From Bacteroidia bacterium (GTDB taxonomy: Bacteria; Bacteroidota; Bacteroidia; 2-12-FULL-35-15), in assembly GCA_020051175.1 (NCBI GenBank), contig JAGVJJ010000007.1, positions 248,001 through 312,000 of the forward strand: 64,000 bases of DNA, written 5' to 3'. The position numbers and the translations under genes are program-made. Below the pieces are notes generated by a model. It saw nothing but the letters and a program-made list of their open reading frames with translations. It was not told the DNA's origin and did not search any database. Shown here piece by piece: positions 46,631-64,000 of the stretch (position 1 is its first letter; each line of letters begins with the position of its first letter).

Positions 46631-48148
46631 TCATCCCTCAAATATCCTCATTTCCCCGCCCTGATTAAACCTGCCATTTTGTACTGCCAATCCTTTTTCT
46701 GGTACTTCAATAACCACATCCACATCATGCTGAAACTCATTTGCCCCTCTAAAGCTACCATCCTTTGTTGTCTGAAAAATATAAATAAATGATTTTCCTT
46801 GATTAGCACGTTTGAGTGCTTCTAAATCCTGAACAGATAAACCCAGTTTATTTACACTATCAAAAAAGATAAAATCATACGGACTTAAACCTTCTGGTAT
46901 TTCTTCTGCCACAAACAGGTTCGGATGTGCTACATCTTTTGCTTTCAGTTTTTCCTGCAAGGTCATGTCCAGTCCTTCCTCTTTAGCAATATAAAGCACT
47001 TTTCCATGATTACGAGCCAAATAACCGGCAAAATCAACACACAGGTAAGATTTCCCCATTTTAGGCTTACCATATACCATTGCAGTAAACCCTCTTGCTG
47101 GGTCGCCAATCAGCTTGAGATATTTACCGGTAAAACCCAGTGTACGAAATTGCATGTTTTTAAAGACCATGCTGCTCATAACACCGGTTGGCTTAGGCAA
47201 TACTTCTTCGGCAGTAGAAACGCCCTCTAAACCGTTTAATTCGCTTTCCGGTTCATCTCCGTTTACAGTTTCACAACCACAACCTGCCAATATTCCGTTT
47301 AATCCATTCAGTTCAGTTTCCTGGATACTCAATACTTTTTGTGATTTGTTCTTTACATAACTGTTCAGGTTTGCAAACATAGCATCCAATATTTTGGCAT
47401 ACTTATCTGTTTTACTAACTTTCTTCAAATGAACGGCACGTGTCATAGCTTCCATTAATACTTTGGCTTTCTCTTTAACATCGTATTTACCGTTCAGAGT
47501 AATATACCGTTTGATTAACATGACAGACGGCATTACTTTTTGTTCAGCAATCAGGGCTTTAAACTCTGATATTGTTTTATCGCTGATTTCTGCTACAACA
47601 GTTCTACCCATACTGTTATACGTTTTAATCAACTTTTCCTGGATATACTCCATTTGCTTTGCATAGGGCGAAGATTTGCGAACTTTCTTTTCAATAATTG
47701 CACGATGCAGTGCATTGATAAAGCGCAGTAAGTCTTCTTTGGTCTTTTTCTTACCGTTTAGGCTTAAATAACGTCTTATAAAGCGGATTTCTTCTGGGAT
47801 GCGCTCCACAAATTCAAAATCGTTTTCCGGTTCCTGCGCTTTCTGTTTAGTTTTTTGCGTAGAAACATGCTCTTTTCGTACTGCCGGTTTTGCCTTGTGT
47901 TCTGTTTCACTTGCTGGTGCTTTTGGCACAACAGGCGGCACAACAGGCGTGTGTTTTCCAACAAACTCATTCAGCTTACTGATAGTTGTATCAATCACAG
48001 CTTTGATTTGTTTGTTCTCATAAGCATTCCAGTTAGTCCCATTTTCAGTAGCCTTCAATACCCATTCGTGTGCCTTCTTTAGATTGTCCGGTAATTGCGA
48101 TAGATTTATTGTTTTGGTTTTCTCTATGTAATTGGTGGTAGTTATCAT
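46631..48148 (-). CDS. RadA/RecA-like ATPase with duplicated N-terminal repeats
   Basis: This 505-residue protein has a C-terminal RecA-fold ATPase: Walker A GKPKMGKS at 360-367, a Walker B-like YDFIFFDSV, and the sequence QTTKDGSFRGANEFQHDVDV, which recalls the RadA/Sms loop. Residues 120-180 and 207-266 are two copies of a helical repeat (RYLSLNGKKKTKEDLLRFIN and RYITLNGKYDVKEKAKVLME). The N-terminus before this is Pro/Lys-rich. Two LNGLxG motifs occur at 280-285 and 304-309. It is convergent with the TonB receptor gene and 19 bases from the giant gene upstream. A role in recombination or element DNA processing is inferred. Confidence 0.75.
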   Translation of the reverse strand: MITTTNYIEKTKTINLSQLPDNLKKAHEWVLKATENGTNWNAYENKQIKAVIDTTISKLNEFVGKHTPVVPPVVPKAPASETEHKAKPAVRKEHVSTQKTKQKAQEPENDFEFVERIPEEIRFIRRYLSLNGKKKTKEDLLRFINALHRAIIEKKVRKSSPYAKQMEYIQEKLIKTYNSMGRTVVAEISDKTISEFKALIAEQKVMPSVMLIKRYITLNGKYDVKEKAKVLMEAMTRAVHLKKVSKTDKYAKILDAMFANLNSYVKNKSQKVLSIQETELNGLNGILAGCGCETVNGDEPESELNGLEGVSTAEEVLPKPTGVMSSMVFKNMQFRTLGFTGKYLKLIGDPARGFTAMVYGKPKMGKSYLCVDFAGYLARNHGKVLYIAKEEGLDMTLQEKLKAKDVAHPNLFVAEEIPEGLSPYDFIFFDSVNKLGLSVQDLEALKRANQGKSFIYIFQTTKDGSFRGANEFQHDVDVVIEVPEKGLAVQNGRFNQGGEMRIFEG

Positions 48149-48167
48149 GGTTAAGTGTTTTAAAAGT

Positions 48168-51100
48168 TTATGCTGCTAATTCCAATGCTAAAGCAATGGC
48201 TTCGGATTCCAGTTCCAGGATGCGGATGCGTTCCAGCTCTGTATCATCTTCTGCTGGCGGCAATTCAATTTTCCTGCGGGTAGATATTCGTTCCTTATTG
48301 CTTTTTACCAGTGATAGCATGGAAGGAGCAACCGACACACTTACACCAAACTTATTTTGAAGTATGCTTGCAAAGGCTTCTATGTTCTGTTTTGGTAAAT
48401 ACGCCTGCATCTTATCAGCCGTTTTTTCAAACATGCCTTTTTCCAATAATTGTAATAGGTCTTTGTCAAGGTAAATATCTCCTGCTTTGGAACGGGCAGC
48501 AGGAACAATTACTCGGTAATAGTCTGCTGTATTGAAAAATGCAATTCCGTTAGAAGCATATAATGCTGACCCACCGGTCATGGACTTTAAGAGTGGCAAT
48601 GCTTTAATGATAGGCACTGTTACCCGTTGCTGACTGGTTTCTTTTGGCTGCCATTCTTCCGGTAATAAAATGCCTTTTTTTGTCTCCCCGTCTATTGTAG
48701 TGTAACTCACCAACTTACCGCTGTTTTCTGTTCCAAATGCCTGCAACAGATTTCCGGTAATGATATAGCGTATGCCCCTGTCTTTGGTCTTCTGGCTGAT
48801 TTCTGTATCCCATTCGTTCAGCAATGCTTCTGTGCCGGGTTGTGCAATCTGATGGCTGGCAGCTACTATTCTGGAAATACCATCATTAAAACTGGCTGGC
48901 ATAGCAATGTACTTATTGCTGTTGGCAATGGCCAGCCGGACTTTGATTGCACTTGGAGCATACGGATTTTTCTTCTTCTTATCAATCATAATCCCTAAAC
49001 TGACCGCCAGTACATTTTCCTGCCCATTGTCATAGCTGACTACCGGGTAAGCCAGCTTGCGGCCTATAGTAAAAAAGTTTAGAATGCGTTGTAAATATTC
49101 CTGTTTGTTTTTACTGGATTTAGCTGATTGTTCAAGCGCTAAACGCCTTGCTTCATTCAATTCTTTTTCCCTTTGTTCGATGGCTATCCGATAGGCTCCT
49201 TCACCCTGCTTTTCCAATACCTTTTGTATTTTCTTTTCGTTCGGTACTTCTTTAATTAACTCATCGTATTTTTCTTGAATGGCTGTCATCTCTTCCTGCT
49301 GGCGGATTTCCATTGTTTCGATAAAGTCATCCAGTAATAGCTTTTTATGTTCTTCAGGATATTTGCCAGCTAATGCTTCATTTTGCAGGTTGGAAAGCTC
49401 CGCTTTACTAAAAGGCTTCTTTAAAATATTCGCACGCACTTTTTCCAAAATACTATCTTCACCAAAAGCACTTTCACCACCTTTACCCATTTTGATAATA
49501 CTGGTTTCAATGGTTTCTGTTTGCAGGTTGAGTGCTTCTACTTCCAAATCATATTCCCCGATTTGTCTGAGATATTCCACATAATCGTTATAGCGTTCGG
49601 TAATTTCCAAATAAAACTCGGCTTGCATTTGCGTAGATAATACAGCTACACGTCCTGACACACGGTGCGCTGCATCTTCTGTCTGGTCTTCGGTGCTGCT
49701 TTTTAAACGCAATGGGTCATTCAGTAGCTCATTCACATTTATATTTTCCAACAGGTATTCTTTGACTACCTTGTCTCCATACTTGTTCAGAAAGTCCGGC
49801 ACGTCTAATATTTTTGTGCTTTGTTTTTGATTGGAAGTGGTATTGGCATCTAAAGATTTTAATTTCTTTTGCAACATCATCATCAGCCGCTTTTCTGCCG
49901 GTATTGCAGAAATAACATAATCGTAAATTGGTTTTAAAATCTGACCGGTACGGTTGATACGTCCACGCTTCTGAACTTCTGTATTAATATCCAGTTCTGC
50001 CTGCAATACAATCATTACCCGCTGCCTTACCTGTTGGGCTGGCACTTTGGGAGTAACAATGGCATGTGCGGATGCTCCGGTGCTGCCGGACTGGTTAATC
50101 ATCAGCACATCCATTTCATTATTGTTGAACAAACGAAAAGCATCATTGGTATTGATACGCTTTCGGGAAGTAACCAAACCTTTATTGCCCTGTGCATTGG
50201 GCTGAACGGCAAACTTCCTTCCGGTTACCTCTGCAACCCTGTAACCTGCTCTTTCCAGCTTCTGTATTATCATATCTATTGGGCTGATAGTAATACCGGT
50301 GCTCACTGTGTTAATTTCATCCAGTATGCGGTTATACTCTTTACGTGCGTCCTCGTCCAACTCCGACAGCTCAAATTTCTTATAAATGGAAGCTCCGTTT
50401 ACATCTTTCTCTGTGTATCGCATCACACCTTCCAGTCCTTTCTTTAACACTTCCGAAAAATCAGTATTGATTAAATCCCCGTCACTCACCGCCAGCCCTT
50501 GTTCGTTTTCCATTTGTTCGATGAAACTACCCATTGTGGAAGCAAAGGCTATCACCGGTTTTTTACCCTCTTTCAATCGTTCTATTGTACGTTCCGCCAC
50601 TGCATCAGCTTTGATACTGAACAGCATCTGATTAATCACATTAAACACTTTGGAGAAGTAAGGAAGATTATCTACTCCTGCCTGTGAAGTTCCTTCACGC
50701 AATTCGATTTCTTTACCTTCGGCAACAGCGATTTTATCCAGTTCGCTTACTTGTTTGTCAATGTAATTCTTCTGGAAGGCAATAATGTCCCGCAAGATAC
50801 TGGTAATACTATCTGCGGTTTTTCTGTGCTGTGCCTCATACGTTTCAAGAGAAATATAGTTGACTTCTACTCCTTCAAAGCTCCTTTCCCTGCGTACCAT
50901 TTGTCCTTCGGCTACCAATTGGCTGGATAATACTTCCTGTAAAGCAACGCCTCCTTTCTGTATGGCTTCTACCAGTTCATCCTTTGTCAGGTTTGCTTCG
51001 CTGATAGCTGTTTTCATGGCATATATCGGCATATTATCAGGTCTTTTGGCAAAAGTGGCGGATAAGAAAACTACCCCTTTTGTATCGCTTACCACACGTT

Positions 51101-53357
51101 GCATAAACTCTCCTGTATTGCTGGAACCACTGGAATTATGCGCTTCGTCCATTATCAGCAGGTTGTCTTTGGCAATGCTCATCAAAAAGTTTGGCTTCTC
51201 CGGTTTTTTCTCCGGTGAGTTAAACTGTGAGTAAGTTCCTACTACAAAATCATAGTTAGCAGGTATAGTCCTGCTCTCAAAAATGCTGGCTTGCTCCGAA
51301 GGAGCGAGTGCCTGATGTATCACATTACCGTCTTCGTCTTTAATATCAGTTTTTGTTTCCCTTCCATTGACGATAAAAGGCTTAAAGCTGGCAGAGCCAA
51401 TGGCTGAAAGGTCGCGGTAGATGTCAGAAAATAAGTTGGCCTTTTCAGTAATAAATACCGGTTTTAAACCCTGTTTTACCCCGTATCGTATCATAGCGGC
51501 TGCAATTCGTCCTTTACCAATACCGGTCTGGTCACCGATAATCATACCCTGCCCCCTGGCTTCAATATTATAGATAGCCATTGCCACTGCATCAATCTGT
51601 TCTGCGGACAATGCCTGACAAAGCGAATAATGTGTGGCATATCCCAAACGGTGACGTACAAAGTTGTCCATGCTGCCGCCTATTTCTGATTTGATACGAG
51701 CTAATGCGGACTGGATTTCAAAACTCATCGAATCCGGTACTTGCGTATTCAGCACTACACAGCTTTGTGAAGCAGGTATATAAGGAGAGCCGAGGTCAAT
51801 GTCTCCAAAAAGTGCTTTTATCAGCAATGCCTCCTTTGCCAATGCGTGTATGTCCATGTTTTCTGTTGTTATTGGTTGTGCTTCATCTACCGATTGTATT
51901 ATACGGTCATATAATTCCCTGAAGGAGCGAATAACAGTATCAGTTGCTTGGTTTTTAATAGGCGCGACTCCTTCCGGTTTTTGTTTCCTTCCATCAACTA
52001 AAATTAGTCGCACCGGAAAGCCAGTACCCTGCCGGGTGTACAGCCGATGCCCGTCAATTTGTATTACATCTGCCACATTATAATGGCGATACAGATAGTT
52101 AAAGAAAATACGGTTTTTGCCTTTTTCTATTCTTCCTAAGTTATCCCAACGTGTATGTCCGCCAATAATAATGGCTGCCTTTCCGTTGCTCGCCATTGTG
52201 TCTAATGCACGCAGAGCCATCAGGTGGTCAAGCACTTTAATCGGAAAGGTATTGTAGTCAACCGGCTTTTCTAAAATGCCGAAAGGGGGATTGGTCAAAA
52301 CAGCTGCAAATGAGCCTTGTAAATCAACATAAGCAAAAGGCTGAGTTGCATCCCTGTTAAACACATTGGCAAAACCCTGTGTCTGCAAATTCCGATTACG
52401 GGTATAGTCTATTTCATTCACATATACCCGTTCCGGTCTGGCGGCAATGGTCAACAATCCGTTGCCCGCACTTGGCTCAAAGGCATAACCGCCTGTTTGA
52501 TGCAAATAGGGTAAGCCGCAAAATACACCCATCAGATAAGCGATAGGTGCAGGTGTAGAGTATTGCTGTAATAAAATACTTTGACTGGTACGATGAGAGA
52601 GTATCATTTGGTTGTTGTATAAAGCAACAATCAAATCAAATTTTTCTGCTACCGTTTTATTTGAGTGTGCAAATTCCCTTGCGATATTGACAATAGCCAG
52701 CTCAGTCAGTTCCTTAATTTCTGTTTTGTCTGCAATTTTTAAGGAATGCGCTAATGCTTCAATACTACGCTTGTTGTGCTTATATCCTATCCGTAAATCT
52801 TTTTCGATAAACGTTGCAAATTCCTTGTGATTGTCAGCTAATCCTTTTCTGTCATTAATTCCCAATAAGCCTTCGTCTGCAAAAGAATAATGGCTATCCT
52901 TTGTTATGACAATATGGTCAAGCACCTCAATTTCCATGAGCCTTGCAGCTTCTTTTATTTTTTTTGTTATTCCTAAATCCGCATTGCTGGGTTTGGCAGT
53001 TCCGCTTGGATGATTATGAGCCAGGATAATTCCTACGGCTGCACATTTTAAGCCTACGGACAGGATTAATCTTACATCTGCAATGGTAGAACTAATGCCG
53101 CCCTTTGTATGCCTATAATAACCAATAATAATATTGCCATGATTTAAGTATAAAACAACAAAATGCTCCTGTAACTGAACATCTCCACGCTGGAAGGTCT
53201 TGCGTATAAAATTGGCAACATCCATAGAGCTGCTCACCTTACCGAAAAATTTTTTTCGTGTAGACCGGTTATAACGGATTTTGATTTCAGGAATGTCCAG
53301 TGCAGGAATATTGCCCAAAACAATTTCGGAAGGAAATGTATAACGTTTTCGTTTCAT
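48168..53357 (-). CDS. RadC + N6-methyltransferase + strawberry-notch helicase fusion
   Basis: This is a 1729-residue fusion. Residues 45-167 are a RadC (JAMM) domain with Glu64, His114-x-His116, Ser124 and Asp127 (AHNHPSG, then SNAD). Residues about 265-480 are an adenine N6-methyltransferase with EPSAGNG (294-300) and NPPFG (356-360). Residues about 580-1180 are a superfamily 2 helicase of the strawberry-notch type: Walker A GDQTGIGKGR (608-617), DEAH (737-740), LSATFAKRPDN and RGRINRTGQ (1131-1139). The last 500 residues are helical with coiled-coil segments and a beta-rich end. Methylase-helicase fusions of this sort occur on phages (e.g., the DarB-like group) and conjugative elements, where they protect DNA from restriction. 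The start at 53357 is preceded by a long hairpin. Confidence 0.88.
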   Translation of the reverse strand: MKRKRYTFPSEIVLGNIPALDIPEIKIRYNRSTRKKFFGKVSSSMDVANFIRKTFQRGDVQLQEHFVVLYLNHGNIIIGYYRHTKGGISSTIADVRLILSVGLKCAAVGIILAHNHPSGTAKPSNADLGITKKIKEAARLMEIEVLDHIVITKDSHYSFADEGLLGINDRKGLADNHKEFATFIEKDLRIGYKHNKRSIEALAHSLKIADKTEIKELTELAIVNIAREFAHSNKTVAEKFDLIVALYNNQMILSHRTSQSILLQQYSTPAPIAYLMGVFCGLPYLHQTGGYAFEPSAGNGLLTIAARPERVYVNEIDYTRNRNLQTQGFANVFNRDATQPFAYVDLQGSFAAVLTNPPFGILEKPVDYNTFPIKVLDHLMALRALDTMASNGKAAIIIGGHTRWDNLGRIEKGKNRIFFNYLYRHYNVADVIQIDGHRLYTRQGTGFPVRLILVDGRKQKPEGVAPIKNQATDTVIRSFRELYDRIIQSVDEAQPITTENMDIHALAKEALLIKALFGDIDLGSPYIPASQSCVVLNTQVPDSMSFEIQSALARIKSEIGGSMDNFVRHRLGYATHYSLCQALSAEQIDAVAMAIYNIEARGQGMIIGDQTGIGKGRIAAAMIRYGVKQGLKPVFITEKANLFSDIYRDLSAIGSASFKPFIVNGRETKTDIKDEDGNVIHQALAPSEQASIFESRTIPANYDFVVGTYSQFNSPEKKPEKPNFLMSIAKDNLLIMDEAHNSSGSSNTGEFMQRVVSDTKGVVFLSATFAKRPDNMPIYAMKTAISEANLTKDELVEAIQKGGVALQEVLSSQLVAEGQMVRRERSFEGVEVNYISLETYEAQHRKTADSITSILRDIIAFQKNYIDKQVSELDKIAVAEGKEIELREGTSQAGVDNLPYFSKVFNVINQMLFSIKADAVAERTIERLKEGKKPVIAFASTMGSFIEQMENEQGLAVSDGDLINTDFSEVLKKGLEGVMRYTEKDVNGASIYKKFELSELDEDARKEYNRILDEINTVSTGITISPIDMIIQKLERAGYRVAEVTGRKFAVQPNAQGNKGLVTSRKRINTNDAFRLFNNNEMDVLMINQSGSTGASAHAIVTPKVPAQQVRQRVMIVLQAELDINTEVQKRGRINRTGQILKPIYDYVISAIPAEKRLMMMLQKKLKSLDANTTSNQKQSTKILDVPDFLNKYGDKVVKEYLLENINVNELLNDPLRLKSSTEDQTEDAAHRVSGRVAVLSTQMQAEFYLEITERYNDYVEYLRQIGEYDLEVEALNLQTETIETSIIKMGKGGESAFGEDSILEKVRANILKKPFSKAELSNLQNEALAGKYPEEHKKLLLDDFIETMEIRQQEEMTAIQEKYDELIKEVPNEKKIQKVLEKQGEGAYRIAIEQREKELNEARRLALEQSAKSSKNKQEYLQRILNFFTIGRKLAYPVVSYDNGQENVLAVSLGIMIDKKKKNPYAPSAIKVRLAIANSNKYIAMPASFNDGISRIVAASHQIAQPGTEALLNEWDTEISQKTKDRGIRYIITGNLLQAFGTENSGKLVSYTTIDGETKKGILLPEEWQPKETSQQRVTVPIIKALPLLKSMTGGSALYASNGIAFFNTADYYRVIVPAARSKAGDIYLDKDLLQLLEKGMFEKTADKMQAYLPKQNIEAFASILQNKFGVSVSVAPSMLSLVKSNKERISTRRKIELPPAEDDTELERIRILELESEAIALALELAA

Positions 53358-53470: not shown

Positions 53471-54025
53471 TTATGCATAAACAAGAGCAGTCCTGTTATC
53501 CCAGATATTATCAAAATCCTTGTTTCCATCTGCCCATTGGTAAGTGCATACATCGTCTGTATAGCTAATTTTTTGAATTGCCCAAACCGGTTCTTCCATT
53601 TTGGCTCCGGGGTTTGCATAGCCTTTGTAAATAATGTTGGGATTGCTTTCATCAACCAATGCGGGTTCAAAGAACACTTTGTTGTCCAATGAGCTTACTG
53701 AATTACGAATAGTGCTTAACGTCTCGTTCATCTGGTTGAGTTTGGTAATTTCCTCGTTTTGAGTCTGGTGTTCCATTCCCTGAGTGATTACCGTTAGCAT
53801 ATCATTGATAGCATCTTTCAACGCTTCGGGACTGGCCGTTGTTGGTTGCAGCACATCTGCGTAAGGAATAAAGACATTGTACAATGCTCCTTTGCCTATA
53901 TCAATTTTGACCGTGTTGTTTTTGACCACAACAATTTCCCTGATGTGGCTTTTCATAATGTTGCGTTCCTGCGCACCATTCTTTATTTTCAGGCTTGCGC
54001 CATTGTTGATGATTTCTATTGGCAT
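53471..54025 (-). CDS. phage-like structural protein candidate
   Basis: The gene encodes 184 residues from the ATG at 54025 (MPIEIINNGASLKI); a longer frame to 54088 adds 21 residues that overlap the next gene in another frame, so I reject it. The first half is beta-rich with GKGALYNVFIPYADV. A short coiled coil follows, and the end has PGAKMEEPVWAIQKISY and WADGNKDFDNIWDNRTALVY. A similar VW-ADG-F-WDNR pattern recurs, as I recall it, in small proteins of Bacteroidota phages and prophages. The exact function is unknown. Confidence 0.55.
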   Translation of the reverse strand: MPIEIINNGASLKIKNGAQERNIMKSHIREIVVVKNNTVKIDIGKGALYNVFIPYADVLQPTTASPEALKDAINDMLTVITQGMEHQTQNEEITKLNQMNETLSTIRNSVSSLDNKVFFEPALVDESNPNIIYKGYANPGAKMEEPVWAIQKISYTDDVCTYQWADGNKDFDNIWDNRTALVYA

Positions 54026-54030
54026 TGTTT

Positions 54031-54210
54031 TTACTTTTTTTGTTTGTACTTCTTTTTCCTGCTGCGGATAAGGAACTCGCCCGCCCATGCCCCGAGAAAG
54101 CCTCCTATCATTACATAGGGAACGACATCTTTACCTTGCCTTTTGGCATAGTGGTAGCTTACTAAGGAGGTTGCCAGGGTGAGGACGGAAACGAGTGCTT
54201 TTTCTTTCAT
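54031..54210 (-). CDS. small membrane protein, 59 residues
   Basis: The frame starts MKEKALVSVLTLATSLVSY and ends in a Lys-rich tail (RKKKYKQKK). Two short hydrophobic segments (about 5-19 and 33-48) flank a polar KRQGKDV loop. The stop is 5 bases before the start of the following gene, as in the compact packing of the rest of this region. A holin-like or virion membrane protein would fit the context, but neither is shown. Confidence 0.6.
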   Translation of the reverse strand: MKEKALVSVLTLATSLVSYHYAKRQGKDVVPYVMIGGFLGAWAGEFLIRSRKKKYKQKK

Positions 54211-54853: not shown

Positions 54854-54918
54854 TTGTTTTTGGGTTTTAGGATTTGTATTGTTTTTTTTAACACTATCAC
54901 CGAAGTGTCGACCGGCTT

Positions 54919-56031: not shown

Positions 56032-56928
56032 TTACTTGTGGTAGCGCACGTGCTGGCTTTCTACCAGGAATAATTGTTTGTCATTTTCAAAGAGCGAATA
56101 GCTGCCGCGTTTCGTGATTTCTCTTCCGAGTACCATGTTTGCCGGAACCGGAACGGATGTTTTGGGGTCTTTCCATACTTTGCTGGCTGTTTTGGTGATG
56201 AGCATCCTGCTGGTGTCAAATCCGCTCAGTGACCATTTGCTGCCATCGTATTTCAGACCCATGTTGGAAAAAGCCAGTCGTATGCTTTGTTTCTGCTGTT
56301 CATTGGTAAAGCTGTTCAGCATTCCGTTCACCAGCGTTTGCCTTACACCTCCGATGCGGTAGTTCATGAAAGCATCACTAACCGTTTTATAATCGCTGGT
56401 ATTGCGCAACGTTTTAAGCAATGCAAGGGCTTTGTTAAAGTCTTTGCTGCTCGCTGCTGCATAGAGCTGTGATGCTGTCGTGGCATAATTAGGACTGCTC
56501 CCCTTTACCAGTACATTGTAAGTGCTTTCATCTATACTTTCCGGCAATCCTGATTTTTTCAGCGCATTGATGGTTTCTGTTCCGAAATCTCCATCGGCTC
56601 CGTATTTGGGAAGTATGCTTTTTCCATACTTCGTAATAAGTGCTTGTTGCAATGCTTTAACATTGGCTCCCTTACTGCCTTTTTGCAAAGGGAAATCATC
56701 ATTGGAGCTGGACGCATTCGTTTTTGGTTTTGGTATCACCGGTCTGTCTTCATAAAAATCAGGAACATCGTTTTCTGCATCGGCCTGGTTGCGATGATTT
56801 TTCCAGTACTGCCAGCCGAAATAAGTCAAGGCTCCTGTTGCTGCTACTCCCAAACCGATGAACAGCCACTTTTTCCGGCTACCCTTTTTAAGGTCTTGTT
56901 TGCCTTCGTTTATTTTTTGCTTTTTCAT
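56032..56928 (-). CDS. membrane-anchored peptidoglycan-binding-domain protein
   Basis: The product of 298 residues has one N-terminal membrane helix (WLFIGLGVAATGALTYFGW) after a basic start. A linker with DRPVIPKPK leads to a PG_binding_1 domain (LQKGSKGANVKALQQALI and GDFGTETINALKKSGLP, about 82-145). The C-terminal 150 residues are helical, with LKTLRNTSDYKTVSDAF and FTNEQQKQSIRLAFSN, which resembles the annexin-like repeats of the next protein. This is an attachment device between a membrane and peptidoglycan. It lies 5 bases after the annexin-like gene. Confidence 0.75.
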   Translation of the reverse strand: MKKQKINEGKQDLKKGSRKKWLFIGLGVAATGALTYFGWQYWKNHRNQADAENDVPDFYEDRPVIPKPKTNASSSNDDFPLQKGSKGANVKALQQALITKYGKSILPKYGADGDFGTETINALKKSGLPESIDESTYNVLVKGSSPNYATTASQLYAAASSKDFNKALALLKTLRNTSDYKTVSDAFMNYRIGGVRQTLVNGMLNSFTNEQQKQSIRLAFSNMGLKYDGSKWSLSGFDTSRMLITKTASKVWKDPKTSVPVPANMVLGREITKRGSYSLFENDKQLFLVESQHVRYHK

Positions 56929-56933: not shown

Positions 56934-57620
56934 TTAGGTTTTTGGTTTTGCAAGTATTATTTTCATGTAGTCTGTATATTCCCAGAGTTCCAACTCCGCT
57001 TTTAATGCTTCTATCAGGTTTTCGCTGTAAAGCTGGTAGTAAGCCTTTCCAACATTGATAAAGGCAGTTTGCGTTGGTATTTCTGTAAACACTGCCTTGA
57101 TAGCGTCTTCATCCGTTCCGGGAATAAAAGCGTAACTTTTGTCGAAGGCTGCTTTTAAACGTTTTGCCCAGGCTGCATGCTGATTTGCTGTTAATGCCTG
57201 TCCTGCTTTCTGTGGCTTGGCTTCCATTATTTGCAGCATCTCGTTGTACTCACTGGCTTGCAGTTCATCGCTCATGTCCTTGTACATATTGGAACCGTAT
57301 TCCCGCTGATATGCCTTGTACACCTTGTTCAGCTCGTCTTTGGTTTTAATCTGCATCAGTGTATTGCGCAAGCCCTGTGTGTCTGTTCCGAAATACCCAT
57401 CGTTTTCAAAAGCCATTTTTATCTGCTTGGCAAACGTTTCAGGAGAACCGTCTTCAAAGCTTTTCGCATGTGCCCTGTTGGAGATGGTTTTGTCTATCAG
57501 TTTCTTTCCCAATACAATTACTCCTGTAATTCCGGCAGCAGCCAGCAGGGAGTACACTACCTTTTCTTTCAGGCTCATTTCTTCCCGCTCGCCTGAATTA
57601 TATAGAATTGGTTTTTGCAT
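56934..57620 (-). CDS. membrane-anchored protein with two annexin-like repeats
   Basis: This 228-residue protein has an N-terminal membrane helix (residues about 20-40, SLLAAAGITGVIVLG) followed by two helical repeats of about 70 residues. Each has the annexin pattern: a GTD turn (78-80 and 168-170), then LRNTLMQIKTKDELNKVYKA in the first and EDAIKAVFTEIPTQTAFINV in the second, followed by YGSNMYKDMSDEL or YSENLIEALKAEL. The second copy, GTDEDAIKAVF, is especially close to eukaryotic annexin repeats. Annexins bind anionic lipids with calcium. In this element it may bind a membrane. It is next to the peptidoglycan-binding protein. Confidence 0.7.
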   Translation of the reverse strand: MQKPILYNSGEREEMSLKEKVVYSLLAAAGITGVIVLGKKLIDKTISNRAHAKSFEDGSPETFAKQIKMAFENDGYFGTDTQGLRNTLMQIKTKDELNKVYKAYQREYGSNMYKDMSDELQASEYNEMLQIMEAKPQKAGQALTANQHAAWAKRLKAAFDKSYAFIPGTDEDAIKAVFTEIPTQTAFINVGKAYYQLYSENLIEALKAELELWEYTDYMKIILAKPKT

Positions 57621-57650: not shown

Positions 57651-57833
57651 TTATACTCCCAGGGCTTTGCGCGCAATGGCCATTTTCACCGGGTCGTTTT
57701 TGACGATGTGTGCCAGTTGCTCCAATTCTTTGGCAGAGAGTTTTGAAGCCAGTACTGTTACCGCACGCATTTTGGTTTCTGCTTCCTGTTCATTTGCGGC
57801 TGCGATGTGCAGCTCATAGCTGTATTTGCTCAT
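57651..57833 (-). CDS. small helical protein, 60 residues
   Basis: The product MSKYSYELHIAAANEQEAET and the following 40 residues form a beta strand and two or three helices (LSAKELEQLAHIVKN, PVKMAIARKALGV). It has no signal or membrane segment. The gene is packed 30 bases before the annexin-like gene start and 49 bases after the coiled-coil protein gene on the same strand, with an A-rich leader, so it is likely real. The function is unknown. Confidence 0.6.
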   Translation of the reverse strand: MSKYSYELHIAAANEQEAETKMRAVTVLASKLSAKELEQLAHIVKNDPVKMAIARKALGV

Positions 57834-57882: not shown

Positions 57883-58743
57883 CTACTGTTCCTCTTCGTT
57901 TTGCTGCACCAGCTCCAGCACGGGTTGTAACTGTGATTTATCTTTGCTGAAGGCATCCAGGATTTCTATAATCTGGCCGATTTCATGTTCATCAAAGTGT
58001 TTTTGCAGCTCTTTGAACAGGTTGACAAATTCCTTTTCCTGCTCATTCCATGCAGGCTCCGCAACTTTTTCTTTCTTTTTAAAAGATACGTCTGCATTTT
58101 CCTGAACGGGTGCAGGACGGCTGTTGTCCTTTTCAATCAATCCTGCCAATCCTGATACTGCCGGAATTTGTGCAATGATGTGGGTATTGCGCCTTACCAA
58201 TCCTTCCAGTGCAACAGACAGCACTTCGCCCCAATGAACCCCGCCAATTTTGTTAGCGTTTTCTTTTGCTGCTTCCACAGCGGCAGCCAGCGTATCGGCA
58301 TACTCTTCTGCTTCTGTAAGCTCTTTTCGCAGCTCTGCATTTTCTTTTTTCAGGGCAAGTATTTCCATTGCTTCTGTGGTTTTGCGCTGGTGCGCTTCTC
58401 TCCACTCGCTCGCGCTGTTACGGGAAAAGGTTTTTACAGGCATACCGCTTAATCCGAGGTTGGTCGCTTCTTCACGGTTACGGGCTTTCATCAGGAATAC
58501 ATACTGGTCGTTGCGTGGTGAAGAGGCGGTGTTATAGATTACAATTTTGATTTGTTCCGTGTCGGGTGTCATGTAATCTTCATAACCGTCAAAATCATTC
58601 GGCTCATCCGTTTTAGGAACTGCTTTCAAAGCATCCACAAAAATTTCATAATGCTTTGCATGGTTCTTTGCCGCCATTGCTACCAGATGGTTTTTCAGAC
58701 GGTCTACCTTCTGCTGGTCGAAATTGTCAAACTGAATAGGCAT
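57883..58743 (-). CDS. coiled-coil element protein of unknown function
   Basis: The protein has 286 residues. It starts MPIQFDNFDQQKVDRLKNHL; residues 50-110 are mixed (IKIVIYNTASSPRNDQYVFL). A long coiled coil runs from about 125 to 165 (ALKKENAELRKELTEAEEYA). A helical hydrophobic region (HIIAQIPAVSGLAGLIEKD) and an acidic helical C-terminus with KELQKHFDEHEIGQIIEIL follow. No family was recognised. In a virion it could be a scaffold or a DNA-associated protein. Confidence 0.6.
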   Translation of the reverse strand: MPIQFDNFDQQKVDRLKNHLVAMAAKNHAKHYEIFVDALKAVPKTDEPNDFDGYEDYMTPDTEQIKIVIYNTASSPRNDQYVFLMKARNREEATNLGLSGMPVKTFSRNSASEWREAHQRKTTEAMEILALKKENAELRKELTEAEEYADTLAAAVEAAKENANKIGGVHWGEVLSVALEGLVRRNTHIIAQIPAVSGLAGLIEKDNSRPAPVQENADVSFKKKEKVAEPAWNEQEKEFVNLFKELQKHFDEHEIGQIIEILDAFSKDKSQLQPVLELVQQNEEEQ

Positions 58744-58777: not shown

Positions 58778-59104
58778 TCAGCCTTTGGCTGTGGTTGTTG
58801 GTATCACCTGTATGAACCGCAGGTGATTGATACGGTCTGCGTAATTGTGAACCTGGATGGCTCCCTGATGTTCGTATGTCTGCTCGTTGGTCGTATTGTC
58901 TGCGATGTCAAACAGCCCGAAGTCCGATACAATGCTCAGCTCTGTCACTTCCTCCACAAGGATATAAAACTGGTTATAGGCTTCTATCTCTGCTTTTTCT
59001 CCCGGCTGCAACACCAGGTGCCGGAAGCGGATATAGTACTCCGCACCATAGCCCAGCTCTTTCATTCTGCGCGGGATGTATTCTAAAGCCAGTGCAATGG
59101 TCAT
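58778..59104 (-). CDS. small beta-rich protein, capsid-accessory candidate
   Basis: The product is 108 residues and mostly beta-structured, with alternating hydrophobic strands (YYIRFRHLVLQPGEKAEIEA, QFYILVEEVTELSIVSDF). It begins MTIALALEYIPRRM and ends RFIQVIPTTTAKG. The size and strand pattern are similar to single jelly-roll proteins, but no sequence proof exists. Its start overlaps the end of the 171-residue protein gene by 4 bases (ATGA), so the three small beta-rich genes are translated together. Confidence 0.5.
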   Translation of the reverse strand: MTIALALEYIPRRMKELGYGAEYYIRFRHLVLQPGEKAEIEAYNQFYILVEEVTELSIVSDFGLFDIADNTTNEQTYEHQGAIQVHNYADRINHLRFIQVIPTTTAKG

Positions 59105-59616
59105 CGTTTGTTTGTATTAGGTTCAATTATTTCTATCCATACATACACATTCAACAGGTAGTTCACAGCAGGATTGTTTTCTCCGTATCGGTCTTTATAA
59201 ATGCCATGCAGTATAGTACTTCTGCCATCTACAACCACCCTTTCTTCAAAGGAGCTGGACTGGTGTGTAAAAGCTGTAGCAGTCCAATACGTGTTTCCTG
59301 AAAAATCACAATAGGCAGCATTGTTATCTATTTGCAGATGTCCTGAATAAAAGATGTTAGCTTCTTCACAACTTTGCAGCTTCAACTCTCCGATAAGCAA
59401 GTCGCGTTTGAACTTCAATCCGCTTTCTGCAAATCGTACTTTGATTATTTCTTTCGGAGGAATAACCGAAGTATTCTTAGTCGGTGCGAGCCATCGTCCT
59501 CCCAGCTCTATTCCGATAATGTGCTTCGTATTTTTAGGAAGCTTTATCTGGAAGTGCTTTGCCTGCCCTGCTTTCTGAATACTCAGGCTTGTACTGATTA
59601 CCTGCTCCCGCATCAT
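59101..59616 (-). CDS. beta-rich protein, capsid candidate
   Basis: This 171-residue protein is beta-rich with strands separated by short turns: QAKHFQIKLPKNTKHIIGIE, FKRDLLIGELKLQSCEEANI, and NYLLNVYVWIEIIEPN at the end. The spacing fits an eight-stranded jelly roll, as in many small viral capsid or vertex proteins. It overlaps both neighbours by 4 bases. Its N-terminus, REQVISTSLSIQKAGQAKHF, is similar in layout to the start of the 127-residue protein above it (FDIQVTAAKESITKSFELDK), so the two may be homologues. Confidence 0.5.
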   Translation of the reverse strand: MMREQVISTSLSIQKAGQAKHFQIKLPKNTKHIIGIELGGRWLAPTKNTSVIPPKEIIKVRFAESGLKFKRDLLIGELKLQSCEEANIFYSGHLQIDNNAAYCDFSGNTYWTATAFTHQSSSFEERVVVDGRSTILHGIYKDRYGENNPAVNYLLNVYVWIEIIEPNTNKR

Positions 59617-59996
59617 AGTCCGTCCTCCATTTCACAATCTATATACAGCGATACACGGTAAGTTTCAAAAGGAGTGCGCGTATCCTCATTGTCAGTAAAG
59701 ATGAGTTTGACAATACCGTTACCGGGATTCACATTGCCCAAATCGTAGTAGCGTTGCTTGGGTGGTACATTGATACCGGACATCAATAATTTACTTTCGT
59801 AGTTTTCAGGGAAATATTCTTCCTTGTTGATTTCAATTTTCTGCGTTCCCCTGTAGTACAATAAGTCGTCTTTATCCGACATTACCAGTACTCCCCGCAC
59901 TGTTTTGATGGTTTTATCCAACTCAAAGGATTTGGTTATACTTTCCTTTGCAGCGGTAACCTGTATATCAAATCGTTTCTTTACTGGCTTTAACAT
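59613..59996 (-). CDS. beta-rich protein, capsid candidate
   Basis: The gene encodes 127 residues, nearly all beta: FDIQVTAAKESITKSFELDK, TVRGVLVMSDKDDLLYYRGT, VPPKQRYYDLGNVN, and FETYRVSLYIDCEMEDGL at the end. The arrangement of strands, the RGTQKIEI and YYDLG motifs, and the length match what one expects of a small single jelly-roll virion protein. The start is 31 bases downstream of a strong GC hairpin. It overlaps the next gene by 4 bases. Confidence 0.5.
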   Translation of the reverse strand: MLKPVKKRFDIQVTAAKESITKSFELDKTIKTVRGVLVMSDKDDLLYYRGTQKIEINKEEYFPENYESKLLMSGINVPPKQRYYDLGNVNPGNGIVKLIFTDNEDTRTPFETYRVSLYIDCEMEDGL

Positions 59997-60065: not shown

Positions 60066-60788
60066 CTATGGCGTTGTAATAGTGCCATACAGACCGGCAA
60101 AAATGTGCGTCTTGGCATCCAGCCCGTCCATTGTTCCCAGCTCAATGGTCATTTCCACAAGAATATCATCCTGTATCAGGCGTGGGTTTGCCAGCTTGTA
60201 ATATCCTACCGGCACATTGTGCATGTTGCTTGTCTTGAACACATTGTTGGCAGTTTCCGGCACAATCTGTTTTTTGTTGCTCTTTAAGGAGAACTCTCCG
60301 TTGGCTATGGGTGCAAAATTTTCCAATGCTCCGAACTGGGTAGCCATTATTTTATCCTTTGACATATCGAAGGAGACACCTGCCAGCAACACGATACCAC
60401 TTACAAGCAATGCCTGGTTTTTCGGCAGTTTGGCATTGGAGATATTACGCAGACCGATTTCCTTGTCGTCCTGGGTTTCAAACATTTTAATGGTTTTGGA
60501 ACTTACCGGTTTGATGCTGTAGATAACTGTATCTGCCAGACGTAGTTCCCCCTTCGCTAATGCCTGTTTAATGTGTGCGGGCAATTCGGAAAAATGTTTT
60601 TCCATTTCTGCACGAGAGCCTTTGCTCGAAGGCCCTGTGTTGGTTAGCTTATTGACAGTTCGCTGGCGTGCAATGGGGTTCATTCTTCTCAATGCACCCA
60701 GCAACTCATCGTTGCCATCCAGACCGTCCAGTCCCAGCAATGCGCCTACATTGCTGTATTCTTCGATTCCTTCTAACATTTCTAACAT
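60066..60788 (-). CDS. main capsid protein candidate
   Basis: The product has 240 residues. The first 85 residues are helical and end in LALAK-like helices (HFSELPAHIKQALAK). The remaining 155 residues are beta-rich, with LRLADTVIYSIKPVSSKTIK, NQALLVSGIVLLAGVSFD, IANGEFSLKSNKKQIVPETA and DDILVEMTIELGTMD. The helical N-terminus followed by a beta domain fits a capsid protein with a scaffold-like extension. It has a GLDGLDG motif at 19-25, which could be a processing site. A hairpin follows the gene and a larger one precedes it, as expected for a highly expressed gene with its own regulation. There is no sequence match to a known capsid protein that I can name. Confidence 0.5.
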   Translation of the reverse strand: MLEMLEGIEEYSNVGALLGLDGLDGNDELLGALRRMNPIARQRTVNKLTNTGPSSKGSRAEMEKHFSELPAHIKQALAKGELRLADTVIYSIKPVSSKTIKMFETQDDKEIGLRNISNAKLPKNQALLVSGIVLLAGVSFDMSKDKIMATQFGALENFAPIANGEFSLKSNKKQIVPETANNVFKTSNMHNVPVGYYKLANPRLIQDDILVEMTIELGTMDGLDAKTHIFAGLYGTITTP

Positions 60789-60837
60789 GGTGTTTTTGTG
60801 TTTTTTGTTTGTAGTGTTGTTTGTTTCTTTTTCTTTG

Positions 60838-60935
60838 AAAAAGGCCGTAGCTTTCCTGTTCCGCTATTTTTATTAAATACGGGTGTTCATTATTTTCTAA
60901 TGTTCAGTCGGAAGGAGAAGGCTTACGGCCTTTTT
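60838..60935 (-). promoter_or_regulatory. long-loop inverted repeat before the capsid candidate gene
   Basis: AAAAAGGCCGTAGC (60838-60851) and GCTTACGGCCTTTTT (60921-60935) form a stem of 14 bp with one bulge around a loop of about 69 bases. On the minus strand the stem ends in CCTTTTT, so it may terminate the upstream 195-residue gene. It sits in the 159-base gap before the capsid candidate and could also be a leader structure. Confidence 0.5.
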
Positions 60936-60947
60936 GTTTCTTGGTGC

Positions 60948-61535
60948 TTAGTAGATTCTGCCAATATCAGACAGTCCATCATAGCCTCCGGACATTTGCC
61001 GCTCGTATTGTTCACCACTTCGCGCAATCTCGTTTTCAATATTCTCCAGGGAACCCATATCCAACTCCTGGTTGGCAGGGTACTTGAAGTATTGCACATT
61101 GCCCATTCCATCGGTGCTGTCCTCTTTTTCGGCATCTTTGGCTTTGATGACTTTATCTAAATAAAGCCGTTGCTTGATGTTGGTTCCGAATGCTTTGATG
61201 CGTTCTTTTACACCGTCCAGGCCGGAAGTTCCTGTTCCGTTTACTGCATCTGCTCCTACCTGGTAGCCTCCCGATGCCATCATTCCCAAACCGAAACTGG
61301 TAGCCAGCGATGAACCCATGTAATGCCCTATCAGTGAAGTGCCGAAACCTACGAGCAGAGAAGGTTTTCCTATGGCTGCTCCTGCCACCCCGCCTCCTAC
61401 AGCTCCTATCAATAAATCTTTTACAGATTCTATTGCGCTGTTTTTAGCATCGCCTTTGGTTTGCAGCTCCCTTACCAGGGCAAGCGTTTTGGTCTTTTTG
61501 GCTTTGCTGCTGCGCTTACTTTTTTTCTTGCTCAT
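60948..61535 (-). CDS. Gly/Ala-rich membrane-associated element protein
   Basis: This 195-residue protein starts at 61535 (MSKKKSKRSSKAKKTKT); an open frame to 61661 adds 42 less plausible residues. The N-terminus is strongly basic. A hydrophobic Gly/Ala/Ser-rich region follows (about 41-100, LLIGAVGGGVAGAAIG, HYMGSSLATSFGLGMMASGG), with the look of a membrane-inserting segment. The C-terminus is acidic, with SGLDGVKERI at 104 and GGYDGLSDIGRIY at the end. A virion membrane protein or a DNA-contact protein would suit. The family is unknown. Confidence 0.6.
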   Translation of the reverse strand: MSKKKSKRSSKAKKTKTLALVRELQTKGDAKNSAIESVKDLLIGAVGGGVAGAAIGKPSLLVGFGTSLIGHYMGSSLATSFGLGMMASGGYQVGADAVNGTGTSGLDGVKERIKAFGTNIKQRLYLDKVIKAKDAEKEDSTDGMGNVQYFKYPANQELDMGSLENIENEIARSGEQYERQMSGGYDGLSDIGRIY

Positions 61536-61572
61536 GTTCTTTGTGGTATTTATTCGTTCGTGTTTCTTTGTT

Positions 61573-63273
61573 TTATAGTAAGGCGATAGTGGATTTTTTT
61601 CCGTGTTTGCCTTTACGCCTGCCCTCCTTTCTCTTTTTATGTTTGCGTTTGCTGAAGCCATTCAAAGCAGCTTGTCCTTTATTTGTTTTCTTTTCCGAAC
61701 CGGAACCGCCTTTCATCATTTTATAACCTGCATACAGAGCACCGGCTACTGCTAAACCTATTCCCACGGGCTTTATCCACTTTTTGTTGTTTTCCCAAAA
61801 GCCCTTCAAGCCTTTTTTACTGTCATCGGTTCCGTCTTTACTTTCGTCACCTGTGCTTTCTGTTTCCCCGCTTTCTTCCTTTGCTTTTTTTGTCAGCTTG
61901 CTACTGCCGGTTGCGGGCAGGTTTTCATTTGTCCCATCACCCGCGCTTTCATTTGCAGTGGTATCGGTAGGCTCACCTGAACTGTCAGTTGCTGTGCTGT
62001 CTGAACTTTCAGCTCCTGCTTCTTCCGTACCTTTTTTCTTTGGAAACAGATTGCCGATGGACTTTAACAGTACAGCAATACTTCCCATCACCGTAGAGGC
62101 TGCTGCAACGGAGGCGCTGGTAGCAACTACCCCTAATCCTTCTGTACCTTCAAGCCCGTTCACAAATTCATCATAGTAGACATCGCCCAGCAGTTGCGGC
62201 ATAGGTGTGGTTTCACCGAAGCCGGACAAGTCTATCTCCGAAGCACTCACCAGTCCAAAGCCGCTTACTTCTTTATTGCGATTACCGCGTCCGGTCAGGA
62301 TAGCACTTTTCAGATTTTCTGGTTTACCGCCTGCTGTATAAAATATTCCTTCAATCTTGGTCAGCACATTTTTCAGCTTGGCAAATTTGCTCATGTCCAT
62401 TCCGCGTTTCTTTGCTTCTGCTTCCGTCAGGTAAGCCCATTTCAGGTTCTCGGCAACTTTCATCACGTTCAGCTTCATAGAGGCAAGGATACCGGCACGT
62501 AACACAACAGTGGCAGGGTTAATTTTGTTGGTTACGTTTAAGGCTTTCTTGGCTACAGCCTTTATTTTCTGAAATCCCTTTTTCGGTTTTGTGTCCTGGC
62601 TGGCGCCAGGTATTGCACTGGTAGTAGCCTTGCGTTTAAAAAGTTTTCCTAACTCTCCCATATCATCGTTCCATCCGAACAAGTCCTGGGCATCTACTGA
62701 CTGGTTCATTTTTTCGGTGCCTTCCACACCATCTAAATATTGTAAATCCATGTTGTAGTCTTTTTTTTCTGTGTATGGTTCTTCGTAATTAAATCTGTTC
62801 ACCACGCAATCCATTGTGATGTATTTTCCGTTACCTAAAGGCACTATCGGATAAATGTGCTGGAAATAGTCCTGCTTGTATTTTGTAATCCTGTTTACCA
62901 CAGGAATTTTTAAAGCTGCTAAACATGCCCCGATGAATGTGGTGAAACAGTCGCAGTCTCCAACTCCATCGTGTATCAGCCTGCGCGGGCTGCGTACCTG
63001 CTCCAAACCCCGTTTGTCCTTTTTATACTGAACATGATACTTTACAAAGTGCCAGAGCTTTTCGCAAGTAGCATGTACAGGTAATCCCTTCAGTTCTTTA
63101 TCTACGAATTCCTTTACCTGCCATTGTGTATTTCTAATCACCTTCGGGATAAAGTCCACTGTATCGGAAACATTCGCCCCCATCTTTACCGTACTGTCCA
63201 CCACTTTTGCCTTGGGGAACAGGTAACGGTATGGTTCCAGGCTTTGTAACTGTATTATGCCTTTTGCTTCCAT
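61573..63273 (-). CDS. transglutaminase-like protein with C-terminal membrane anchor
   Basis: The protein has 566 residues. Residues about 50-160 are a transglutaminase-like fold: GVGDCDCFTTFIGACL (candidate Cys107 or Cys109), FQHIYPIV (His139) and TMDCVVNRF (Asp155). In bacteria, members of this fold are often proteases or amidases. The middle is Lys-rich and then Gly-rich (SGFGLVSASEIDLSGFGE). The C-terminal part has a low-complexity acidic Ser/Thr/Glu region and a membrane helix (VGIGLAVAGALYAGY, about 503-517) with a very basic tail. The repeats LDGVEGTE (180-187) and VNGLEGTE (371-378) are shared by other proteins of the element. It is 1 base from the LEA14-like gene. Confidence 0.72.
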   Translation of the reverse strand: MEAKGIIQLQSLEPYRYLFPKAKVVDSTVKMGANVSDTVDFIPKVIRNTQWQVKEFVDKELKGLPVHATCEKLWHFVKYHVQYKKDKRGLEQVRSPRRLIHDGVGDCDCFTTFIGACLAALKIPVVNRITKYKQDYFQHIYPIVPLGNGKYITMDCVVNRFNYEEPYTEKKDYNMDLQYLDGVEGTEKMNQSVDAQDLFGWNDDMGELGKLFKRKATTSAIPGASQDTKPKKGFQKIKAVAKKALNVTNKINPATVVLRAGILASMKLNVMKVAENLKWAYLTEAEAKKRGMDMSKFAKLKNVLTKIEGIFYTAGGKPENLKSAILTGRGNRNKEVSGFGLVSASEIDLSGFGETTPMPQLLGDVYYDEFVNGLEGTEGLGVVATSASVAAASTVMGSIAVLLKSIGNLFPKKKGTEEAGAESSDSTATDSSGEPTDTTANESAGDGTNENLPATGSSKLTKKAKEESGETESTGDESKDGTDDSKKGLKGFWENNKKWIKPVGIGLAVAGALYAGYKMMKGGSGSEKKTNKGQAALNGFSKRKHKKRKEGRRKGKHGKKSTIALL

Positions 63274-63762
63274 TTATCCTACAGGGTTAAGTGTGCTGTT
63301 GTCCGTTTTTTCGTAAGGCATTTGCTTCCAGCCTAAATCAATGGTCGTAATCGTTTTTACTGCAATTGTTACCGCCTGATTTTTAGACAGCAGGCTGAAC
63401 AAGCCTCCTCCCAGCGAAAGCAACCCTGTTACCGGTATCTTTACCATAATGGCTTCTACTACTGCTTCTCCATATTCCGGTATGGTAATGTCTTTGTTTA
63501 CTACTTGTGATGTTCCGATGGTTTTATCTTTATACAGCAACTTCACAAATGGAAACTTAATTTTAAAACTGTTGTTGGTCGGGTTCTTGATTTGTACATC
63601 AATGCGCACGGTCAGTCCATCCAGTTTTAAGGAATGCAGCCTGGCAGTGGCTACTGTCTCCAATTCTGCATTGGTTCGGTTCAGCCGACTGAAATAAGCA
63701 ATCGCTCCTATAATACCCGCACCGATACCTGTACCTACGATTATTTTTTTCCAGTCTGCCAT
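63274..63762 (-). CDS. membrane-anchored LEA14-like protein
   Basis: The product of 162 residues has an N-terminal membrane helix (KIIVGTGIGAGIIGAIAYF, about 6-24). The rest is a beta-rich LEA type 2 (WHy) domain: TVRIDVQIKNPTNNSFKIKF, PFVKLLYKDKTIGTSQVV and VEAIMVKIPVTGLL. LEA14 domains are found at membranes in bacteria and in stress proteins. Its stop and the start of the transglutaminase-like gene are adjacent, so both are co-translated. The membrane helix adds to the many anchored proteins in this region. Confidence 0.72.
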   Translation of the reverse strand: MADWKKIIVGTGIGAGIIGAIAYFSRLNRTNAELETVATARLHSLKLDGLTVRIDVQIKNPTNNSFKIKFPFVKLLYKDKTIGTSQVVNKDITIPEYGEAVVEAIMVKIPVTGLLSLGGGLFSLLSKNQAVTIAVKTITTIDLGWKQMPYEKTDNSTLNPVG

Positions 63763-63897
63763 TTTTACTTACTCTTTTATTTTTTTGCCTTGCGTATCGT
63801 TTGTGGGTACAAAGATTCAACAAGGGTTTGAGATGCTGTCCAGATTTTTGACGCTGGTGTTTTACTCTTTATCTGCTTTGTTTTTTGATACCGTTCT

Positions 63898-64000
63898 TTA
63901 CGCTGCTTCATTCACTAATTGACCTGGTACGCCATAGGTATCAATGATGAATTGTACCTGTTTAATGTTGTACATACCTGCTATCGGTAGTCCTAATTCA
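63898..64000 (-). CDS. element protein, C-terminal fragment
   Basis: The frame enters from the right edge and ends at a TAA at 63898-63900. The 33 visible residues read ELGLPIAGMYNIKQVQFIID and then TYGVPGQLVNEAA. They are too few to name the family. The strand and spacing (135 bases before the LEA14-like gene) are as in the other element genes, so the element continues to the right. Confidence 0.55.
   Translation of the reverse strand, partial: ELGLPIAGMYNIKQVQFIIDTYGVPGQLVNEAA

Follow-up and report, generated by a model that had tools for sequence, protein, structure and literature searches.

A probable late operon of a tailless provirus in a Bacteroidia genome, with relatives in Bacteroidota and links to phage SSIP-1

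Introduction

What kind of element is encoded by a long run of codirectional genes in which neither tail nor conjugation functions are visible? We asked this of a locus in a Bacteroidia bacterium (assembly GCA_020051175.1), within a stretch of 64,000 nucleotides, hereafter the window, that corresponds to C55:248001-312000 (contig JAGVJJ010000007.1); rightward of the window the contig runs on for 5.2 kb, to 317206. An earlier note had described nineteen consecutive minus-strand genes, the last cut by the window edge, starting right after a convergent TonB receptor gene, and had read them as a possible tailless, membrane-containing virus-like element. The count of 19 genes from 46631 to the edge was confirmed (17 open reading frames [ORFs] of at least 60 aa between 46631 and 63762, a 59-aa ORF at 54031-54210, and a 74-aa helix-turn-helix [HTH] ORF at 63898-64122), as was the start, with the first gene lying 33 bp past the TonB receptor stop at 46597. 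A 44-aa ORF at 63777-63911 is a possible extra small gene. From the evidence below, the run is very likely the late operon of a provirus, a tailless virus integrated in a Bacteroidota genome, and belongs to a group very probably related, if distantly, to the tailless phage SSIP-1.

Results

The best-conserved product of the run, a 240-aa protein (60066-60788), was modelled with a capsid-type single jelly roll at modest confidence (mean predicted local distance difference test score, pLDDT, of 61). The model was closest to the capsid of Sulfolobus polyhedral virus 1 (SPV1), with a best Z of 7.9, and 23 of the 50 rows of structure matches were viral capsid, coat, cement or protrusion chains in our classification. 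Structure prediction had been proposed in the earlier note as a check on the viral reading, and for this product it gave a capsid-type fold at that modest confidence. At the sequence level, profiles of the 240-aa and 127-aa families, with Persicobacter relatives included, gave nothing above ~2% against SSIP-1 proteins of <900 aa, the 127-aa family gave one chance-level row only against solved structures, and a search for bridging families from the Persicobacter capsid candidate returned two proteins; capsid proteins may keep their fold without sequence likeness. We regard it as likely that the element has its own capsid of the jelly-roll type.

Relatives of this protein are numerous. The 8000 best-sharing candidates were scored with the 240-aa family profile, and 1587 of them passed at E ≤ 0.001; when one genome per species was scanned by pattern, 318 matches came out, 148 of which encode a relative. 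The best 80 of these 148 encoding stretches, together with two viral contigs, formed a set of 82 loci whose ORFs were compared with the 17 window proteins. The window gene order was unbroken in 82/82 loci. All 1088 assigned genes were codirectional with the 240-aa gene; at least 10 families were present in 73 loci, the other nine holding 4 to 8. By title, 78 of the 80 genome loci are from Bacteroidota, the other two being labelled just "bacterium," and the places that the loci occupy in these genomes vary. Among 2.9 million viral contigs, a relative turned up in two only (IMG/VR; L007 and L008), both with bacterial-looking flanks by eye, and a first scan with the transglutaminase alignment gave 85 pattern matches with none confirmed. 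Virus catalogues seem to miss the group. In 21 loci (L022-L026, L036, and others), an extra gene of 177-208 aa was seen; in those viewed it has the capsid candidate on one side and the 127-aa gene on the other, and it perhaps encodes an additional capsid protein.

Presence of the module was patchy (12/59 relatives, 8/36 genomes of the genus, and 3/395 of a phylum sample, the own genome counted each time), and several copies occurred within single genomes. The module does not sit at a locus conserved with housekeeping genes in all relatives, an arrangement that would have spoken against the viral reading of the earlier note. Across products, the ratio of nonsynonymous to synonymous change (pN/pS) against the nearest family member ranged from 0.09 to 0.63, with synonymous sites mostly saturated, and we take the operon to be under purifying selection and strongly conserved. 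A single operon under such selection, with membrane-anchored, peptidoglycan-binding, and transglutaminase-like products, would also suit a domesticated or nonviral apparatus that spreads horizontally, such as a surface structure or an injection or peptidoglycan-remodelling machine, and no recombinase was found in 11 of the 20 stretches considered below. That explanation is quite improbable given the patchy presence with several copies per genome, the prophage-type repressors and integrases, the phage-family lysis proteins and SSIP-1 relatives, and the existence of plasmid-borne forms.

The hallmarks of other mobile elements were not found among the window's products. As the earlier note had claimed, none of the 17 window proteins matched terminase, portal, tail, relaxase, or type IV secretion system (T4SS) families above cut-off in Pfam or PHROGs, and the traits of Caudoviricetes (terminase, portal, HK97-fold capsid, and tail genes) were found in none of them with the same two databases. 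Neither relaxase nor type IV secretion genes scored above the Pfam cut-off among products of the window and of a sister copy described next; a T4SS pilin match (E of 0.012), far below cut-off, fell on hydrophobic-looking residues 488-533 of 61573-63273. A weak match of 56032 was to a PHROG filed under head and packaging yet named endolysin. The ATPase-type products of the window are a RecA/RadA-like protein and a helicase, with no packaging ATPase of FtsK/HerA type among them. A defence island was considered as the primary interpretation and dropped; PADLOC, run on six proteins, gave only a weak mad8 match, to the ATPase.

Through a 69-bp DNA match, a diverged second copy was located on contig C98 of the same genome; identity to the window counterparts is 30-37% for the transglutaminase-like, 240-aa-type, 128-aa, and 107-aa products. 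Direct repeats of 20 bp bound this copy at C98:66854 and C98:83787 (a span of 16.93 kb), the second repeat lies inside the 5′ part of a tRNA-Arg gene (83783-83855), and host-type genes flank the copy on both sides by eye. A tyrosine integrase is found at one end and an XRE/S24 CI-like repressor at the other; the copy also has a Cox-like excisionase match (E of 2.7e-6), the virion-type operon inside the repeats, and a cargo gene for a DUF1016 nuclease that matches the PADLOC candidate PDC-S02. A JAB-LPD1-ATPase fusion stands where the window has two genes. Site-specific integration, a repressor, and attachment (att) repeats, as expected of a temperate virus, were all present, and we take the C98 copy, judging from its predicted genes and ends, as one complete provirus of the group.

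This copy also bears on whether the window run could have been left behind by a tailed phage, or by a conjugative or mobilisable element, with the hallmark genes located past the contig end. The window contig does stop 5.2 kb to the right, tail-type PHROG matches occur in the C98 copy, and the polyvalent protein at 48168 has a relative in a Bacteroides phage, polyvalent proteins being known from tailed phages and conjugative elements. The C98 copy, between its att repeats, nevertheless yielded no terminase, portal, relaxase, or T4SS among 16 products searched with Pfam and 18 with PHROGs, and such a remnant is very improbable.

To place the group among known viruses, we compared it with phage and plasmid records. 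Among 50,697 phage records, the transglutaminase-like protein matched only gp34 of SSIP-1 (E of 6e-3). Profile comparison of the 17 families with the 57 SSIP-1 proteins (969 trials, with E-values given per single comparison) left three standing matches: gp40 with the RecA-like ATPase (hhalign probability, 97.0; E, 9e-11), gp34 with the transglutaminase-like family (96.8; 2e-10), and gp43 with the polyvalent family (72.5; 3e-5), the last in the methylase region only and borderline over 969 trials. The next best probability was 31.6. All three proteins are annotated as structural in SSIP-1. Other phages share the ATPase domain as well, and for one of them (a 636-kb record) the match is closer than for SSIP-1.

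Plasmid records with a transglutaminase relative were confined to five Persicobacter replicons. Plasmid13 of Persicobacter JZB09 is a circle of 47.6 kb that encodes ParA-like and replication-initiator-like proteins. On it, relatives of 63274, 61573, 60066, 57651, 56934, and 46631 follow one another in the window's order, and its BLASTP relatives of SSIP-1 proteins include gp34 (8e-13), gp43 (1.5e-33), the gp31 endolysin (1.6e-12), and gp56 (5e-9), together with a less telling relative of the gp3 invertase. Through these matches, Plasmid13 ties the window module to SSIP-1 more firmly than does direct comparison. Persicobacter pPP10 also carries the module in window order, and Plasmid11 has relatives of the transglutaminase-like protein, 56934, 56032, and the ATPase, with no capsid-candidate relative detected. 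The Persicobacter plasmids, at 47.6-53.2 kb, differ from the window in that they are circular, have genes for ParA and replication initiation, and encode a capsid candidate that is only a distant relative; they are probably phage-plasmids. All or part of the virion module is carried by CP012854, CP012856, and NZ_AP025302, with further copies on larger replicons.

SSIP-1, whose host is a salt-loving, Bacteroidota-related bacterium, resembles the window group in being tailless and in having window relatives of gp34, gp40, and, weakly, gp43, and its genome annotation includes an integrase, an anti-repressor, and a regulator. It differs in genome size (43.8 kb versus 16.9 kb for the sister copy), in gene order, and in gp43, which has ParB and methylase domains, not the RadC domain and Strawberry-notch helicase of 48168. 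Four papers describe SSIP-1 as a membrane-containing tailless phage with T=49, grouped with the single-beta-barrel viruses that have two capsid proteins (PMC6260650, PMC5332951, PMC4958249, PMC6356626), and one of these states that SSIP-1 shares hardly any sequence similarity with GenBank entries (PMC6356626).

The run could instead belong to a phage satellite or similar island, which would integrate and excise by itself but travel in helper capsids, its beta-rich proteins only modifying the helper capsid. The sister copy is of 16.9 kb and the common unit of ~16 kb, the Pfam matches of the window include neither a DNA polymerase nor an ATPase family of FtsK/HerA type, the polyvalent and ATPase domains are common to other phages, and the sister copy has baseplate-hub and minor-head PHROG matches. 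A satellite is nonetheless improbable: no terminase, portal, or other known hijacking gene was found, there are several lysis-type genes and relatives of SSIP-1 structural proteins, and ~20 kbp is, as SPV1 shows, a normal genome size for an independent tailless virus.

Evidence for mobility of the provirus module came from close relatives. Loci L027, L029, and L031 have ~14.2 kb in common at 94-95% identity and a further 1.4-1.8 kb at 84-87%, and their 3.9-kb left flanks do not match each other; the alignments end ~70 bp past the ATPase gene, where the right flank was covered for ~0.5 kb only. With one copy per genome considered, a serine or tyrosine recombinase was found downstream of the ATPase in 9 of 20 stretches, starting within 4 kb in 8; six loci have a serine recombinase within their own stretch, and several recombinases adjoin or overlap tRNA genes. 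When eight relatives were tested for att repeats, these were clear in two, Niastella sp. OAS944 with 20 bp and Puia dinghuensis with 15 bp (spans of ~41.1 and 41.7 kb, respectively), and both repeats begin precisely at one end of a tRNA. In the other six the best repeats were of 11-13 bp, none accepted as an att site. The left halves of both islands hold many further genes (by eye NTPase- and helicase-like ones and, in Puia, a second integrase), and the two islands may be composite. In the 41-kb tRNA-Leu island of Niastella sp. OAS944 (L147), the left half has large NTPase-, helicase-, and NUDIX-like genes that look like defence cargo by eye. A search for an empty insertion site with 41700-46620 in 59 relatives gave diverged matches only. 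Judged from sequence, the module is both conserved and mobile, and we hold with considerable confidence that the element is a mobile one that encodes a virion.

The genes of the run are as follows.

46631..48148, minus strand: RecA/RadA-like ATPase, 505 aa; domain common to SSIP-1 structural gp40 and PHROG 6891
48168..53357, minus strand: polyvalent protein, 1729 aa; RadC-like JAB domain, region aligning with the SSIP-1 gp43 methyltransferase, Strawberry-notch-type helicase
53471..54088, minus strand: conserved protein, 205 aa (family conservation)
54031..54210, minus strand: hydrophobic ORF, 59 aa, hydrophobic by eye; putatively holin-like
54227..54961, minus strand: N-terminal membrane segment and charged remainder; putatively spanin-like
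54919..55587, minus strand: lysis-type protein; PHROG 3000 and an endolysin PHROG
55594..56004, minus strand: N-acetylmuramoyl-L-alanine amidase; PHROG 822, Pfam match below cut-off
56032..56928, minus strand: peptidoglycan-binding-type domain common to phage endolysins; hydrophobic segment in 40/66 family members
56934..57620, minus strand: N-terminal membrane segment and annexin-type repeat; Pfam score at cut-off
57651..57833, minus strand: conserved small protein, 60 aa; relatives on Persicobacter replicons
57883..58743, minus strand: conserved protein, 286 aa; coiled-coil-like, weak matches
58778..59104, minus strand: conserved small protein, 108 aa; putative capsid block
59101..59616, minus strand: small protein, 171 aa, of varying length among relatives; candidate spike or minor capsid protein
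59613..59996, minus strand: small protein, 127 aa, putative capsid block; second capsid candidate
60066..60788, minus strand: 240 aa, the best conserved of the set, with a single jelly roll predicted; candidate major capsid protein
60948..61661, minus strand: conserved protein, 237 aa; hydrophobic segment in 26/80 members; virion-membrane candidate
61573..63273, minus strand: transglutaminase-like, hydrophobic segments present; related to SSIP-1 structural gp34
63274..63762, minus strand: membrane-anchored LEA_2-like protein; weak Pfam match
63898..64000 (full gene, 63898-64122), minus strand: HTH gene, 74 aa, cut by the edge

Several functional assignments of the earlier note stood up, among them the peptidoglycan-related products (the amidase at 55594 and the peptidoglycan-binding-type protein at 56032, by Pfam and PHROGs) and the transglutaminase-like product, by alignment with its relatives. 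Its eight membrane products did so in part. A hydropathy scan found a membrane segment in 54227, 56934, 61573, and 63274 (and in 48168, but within the RadC domain), and 54031 is hydrophobic by eye; the window proteins 56032, 54919, and 60948 have no segment, although 40/66, 21/60, and 26/80 members of their respective families do. From the membrane-segment proteins and by analogy with SSIP-1, an internal membrane is rather probable. The 54227 product is the least conserved of the set, relatives of 54919 occur in Bacteroides, crAss-like, and Pseudoalteromonas phages, and the Bacteroides phage relative of 48168 spans 86% of its length. Polyvalent proteins of the 48168 type are thought to enter the cell along with the DNA, and this one is likely packaged and injected in that way. 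An annexin in a bacterial virus, as the match of the membrane-anchored 56934-57620 product would have it, would be unusual.

Beyond the window edge, C55:312001-317206 holds a conserved 189-aa gene, four plus-strand cargo-like ORFs (ELWKSDGT repeats occur in one), an HTH gene of 68 aa, and a gene for an ImmA/IrrE-type peptidase; the last abuts the contig end and has an in-frame stop there, which may be real or an assembly-edge effect. An XRE/ImmA-type protein heads the module in 34 loci, the window's contig included. Gene content differs among many relatives in the interval that separates the small HTH gene from the 186-190-aa gene (C55:312726-316157), and this spot is likely a cargo hot spot. 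The window contains no tRNA, and no Rfam families were found at 43000-64000. The GC content is 0.427 in the window part of the element and 0.381 to its left, where 0 of 59 overlapping 17.4-kb stretches exceeded 0.403. Base composition is a weak argument for foreign origin, because the part of the element past the window edge has a GC content of 0.344 and the sister copy (0.370) lies below its own flanks (0.411 and 0.436).

Discussion

Taken together, the jelly-roll model, the patchy loci, the absence of tail, portal, and conjugation genes from the window's products, and the links to SSIP-1 support a tailless virus-like element, as the earlier note had proposed. Its more specific plan, modelled on PRD1, PM2, and FLiP, held in part. 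Those viruses are tailless, with an internal membrane and peptidoglycan-active virion proteins; they have a double jelly roll, whereas the one capsid candidate folded here has a single beta domain and its three small neighbours are of 108-171 aa. The tailless virus-like character stood, but the closest virus is SSIP-1, of the single-beta-barrel group, and the membrane is deduced only. The list of structural matches names neither PM2 nor FLiP, which is no evidence against them.

Sphaerolipovirus-type viruses (P23-77, SH1, and HHIV-2) are tailless, with an internal membrane and vertical single-beta-barrel capsid proteins, and the packaging ATPase of the sphaerolipovirus/Helvetiavirae-type lineage is of the FtsK/HerA type. 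The window ATPase is RecA-like and in this unlike theirs. Reviews group SSIP-1 with these viruses (PMC5332951, PMC4958249), and one describes the lineage with a packaging ATPase of conserved motifs (PMC4958249). SPV1 (Portogloboviridae) has an archaeal host, and no sequence similarity to it was seen; the fold match is just below the caution level of the structure tool. SPV1, too, is without an FtsK/HerA-type packaging ATPase (PMC8812541).

Several points weigh against a tailless provirus. The capsid model has a pLDDT of only 61, its Z is just under the caution level of 8, about half of the match rows are non-capsid, and by sequence no SSIP-1 protein, phage record, or solved structure matched the candidate. 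Transglutaminase and RecA folds are common, and relatives of the ATPase and polyvalent proteins also occur in phages not known as tailless. One product of the C98 copy, a transglycosylase-type protein of 223 aa with a Pfam SLT domain at residues 24-109, matches two PHROG families, baseplate hub (E of 2.6e-30, residues 80-186) and lytic tail protein, and the JAB-LPD1 protein matches a minor head/DNA pilot family (E of 1.9e-5); we read these matches as probably reflecting shared domains. The window copy has no integrase or att site, the contig ending at its ImmA-type gene, 11 of the 20 stretches downstream of the ATPase lack a recombinase, and an att repeat was clear in only 3 of 9 copies tested, the sister copy included.

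If the run is the late operon of a provirus, the XRE/ImmA pair would keep it silent, and upon induction the operon would be transcribed as a single unit. The 60066-60788 protein would form the shell, perhaps together with the products of 58778-59996, around a membrane that carries 60948, 61573, 63274, 56934, and 56032. The RecA-like ATPase would act on DNA in the virion or on its way there, and the polyvalent JAB/methylase/helicase protein would be packaged and injected with the genome. Lysis would be the task of the amidase and the endolysin-like, holin-like, and spanin-like proteins, and entry would be aided by the transglutaminase-like and peptidoglycan-binding products.

We favour the view that these proviruses form a new and widespread group related to SSIP-1, in which the capsid candidate is unusual and the ATPase is RecA-like instead of FtsK/HerA-type. 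The group appears undescribed: no published description was found in the literature searched, which excluded most subscription papers and preprints, and the small marine elements of PMC12324425 are unrelated. A bolder proposal, which we advance tentatively and judge slightly more doubtful than probable, is a temperate, tailless, probably membrane-containing double-stranded DNA virus group of family or order level, common in Bacteroidota and almost wholly missed by catalogues. It would comprise compact, tRNA-integrated proviruses of ~17 kb and phage-plasmids of ~50 kb, would have an SPV1-like single-jelly-roll capsid without an FtsK/HerA packaging ATPase, and would connect the base of the single-jelly-roll virus lineage with SSIP-1, so far an orphan.

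SSIP-1 is described as a near-orphan by sequence; the capsid candidate here has 1587 homologues (among the 8000 candidates scored), with 148 encoding stretches in genomes and two viral contigs. If the provirus interpretation is true, temperate viruses of a kind that is common in environmental Bacteroidota escape virus-detection tools, and in culturable hosts (Niastella, Chitinophaga, Puia, and Flavisolibacter) tailless temperate viruses, capsid ancestry, and packaging without a classical ATPase would become testable.

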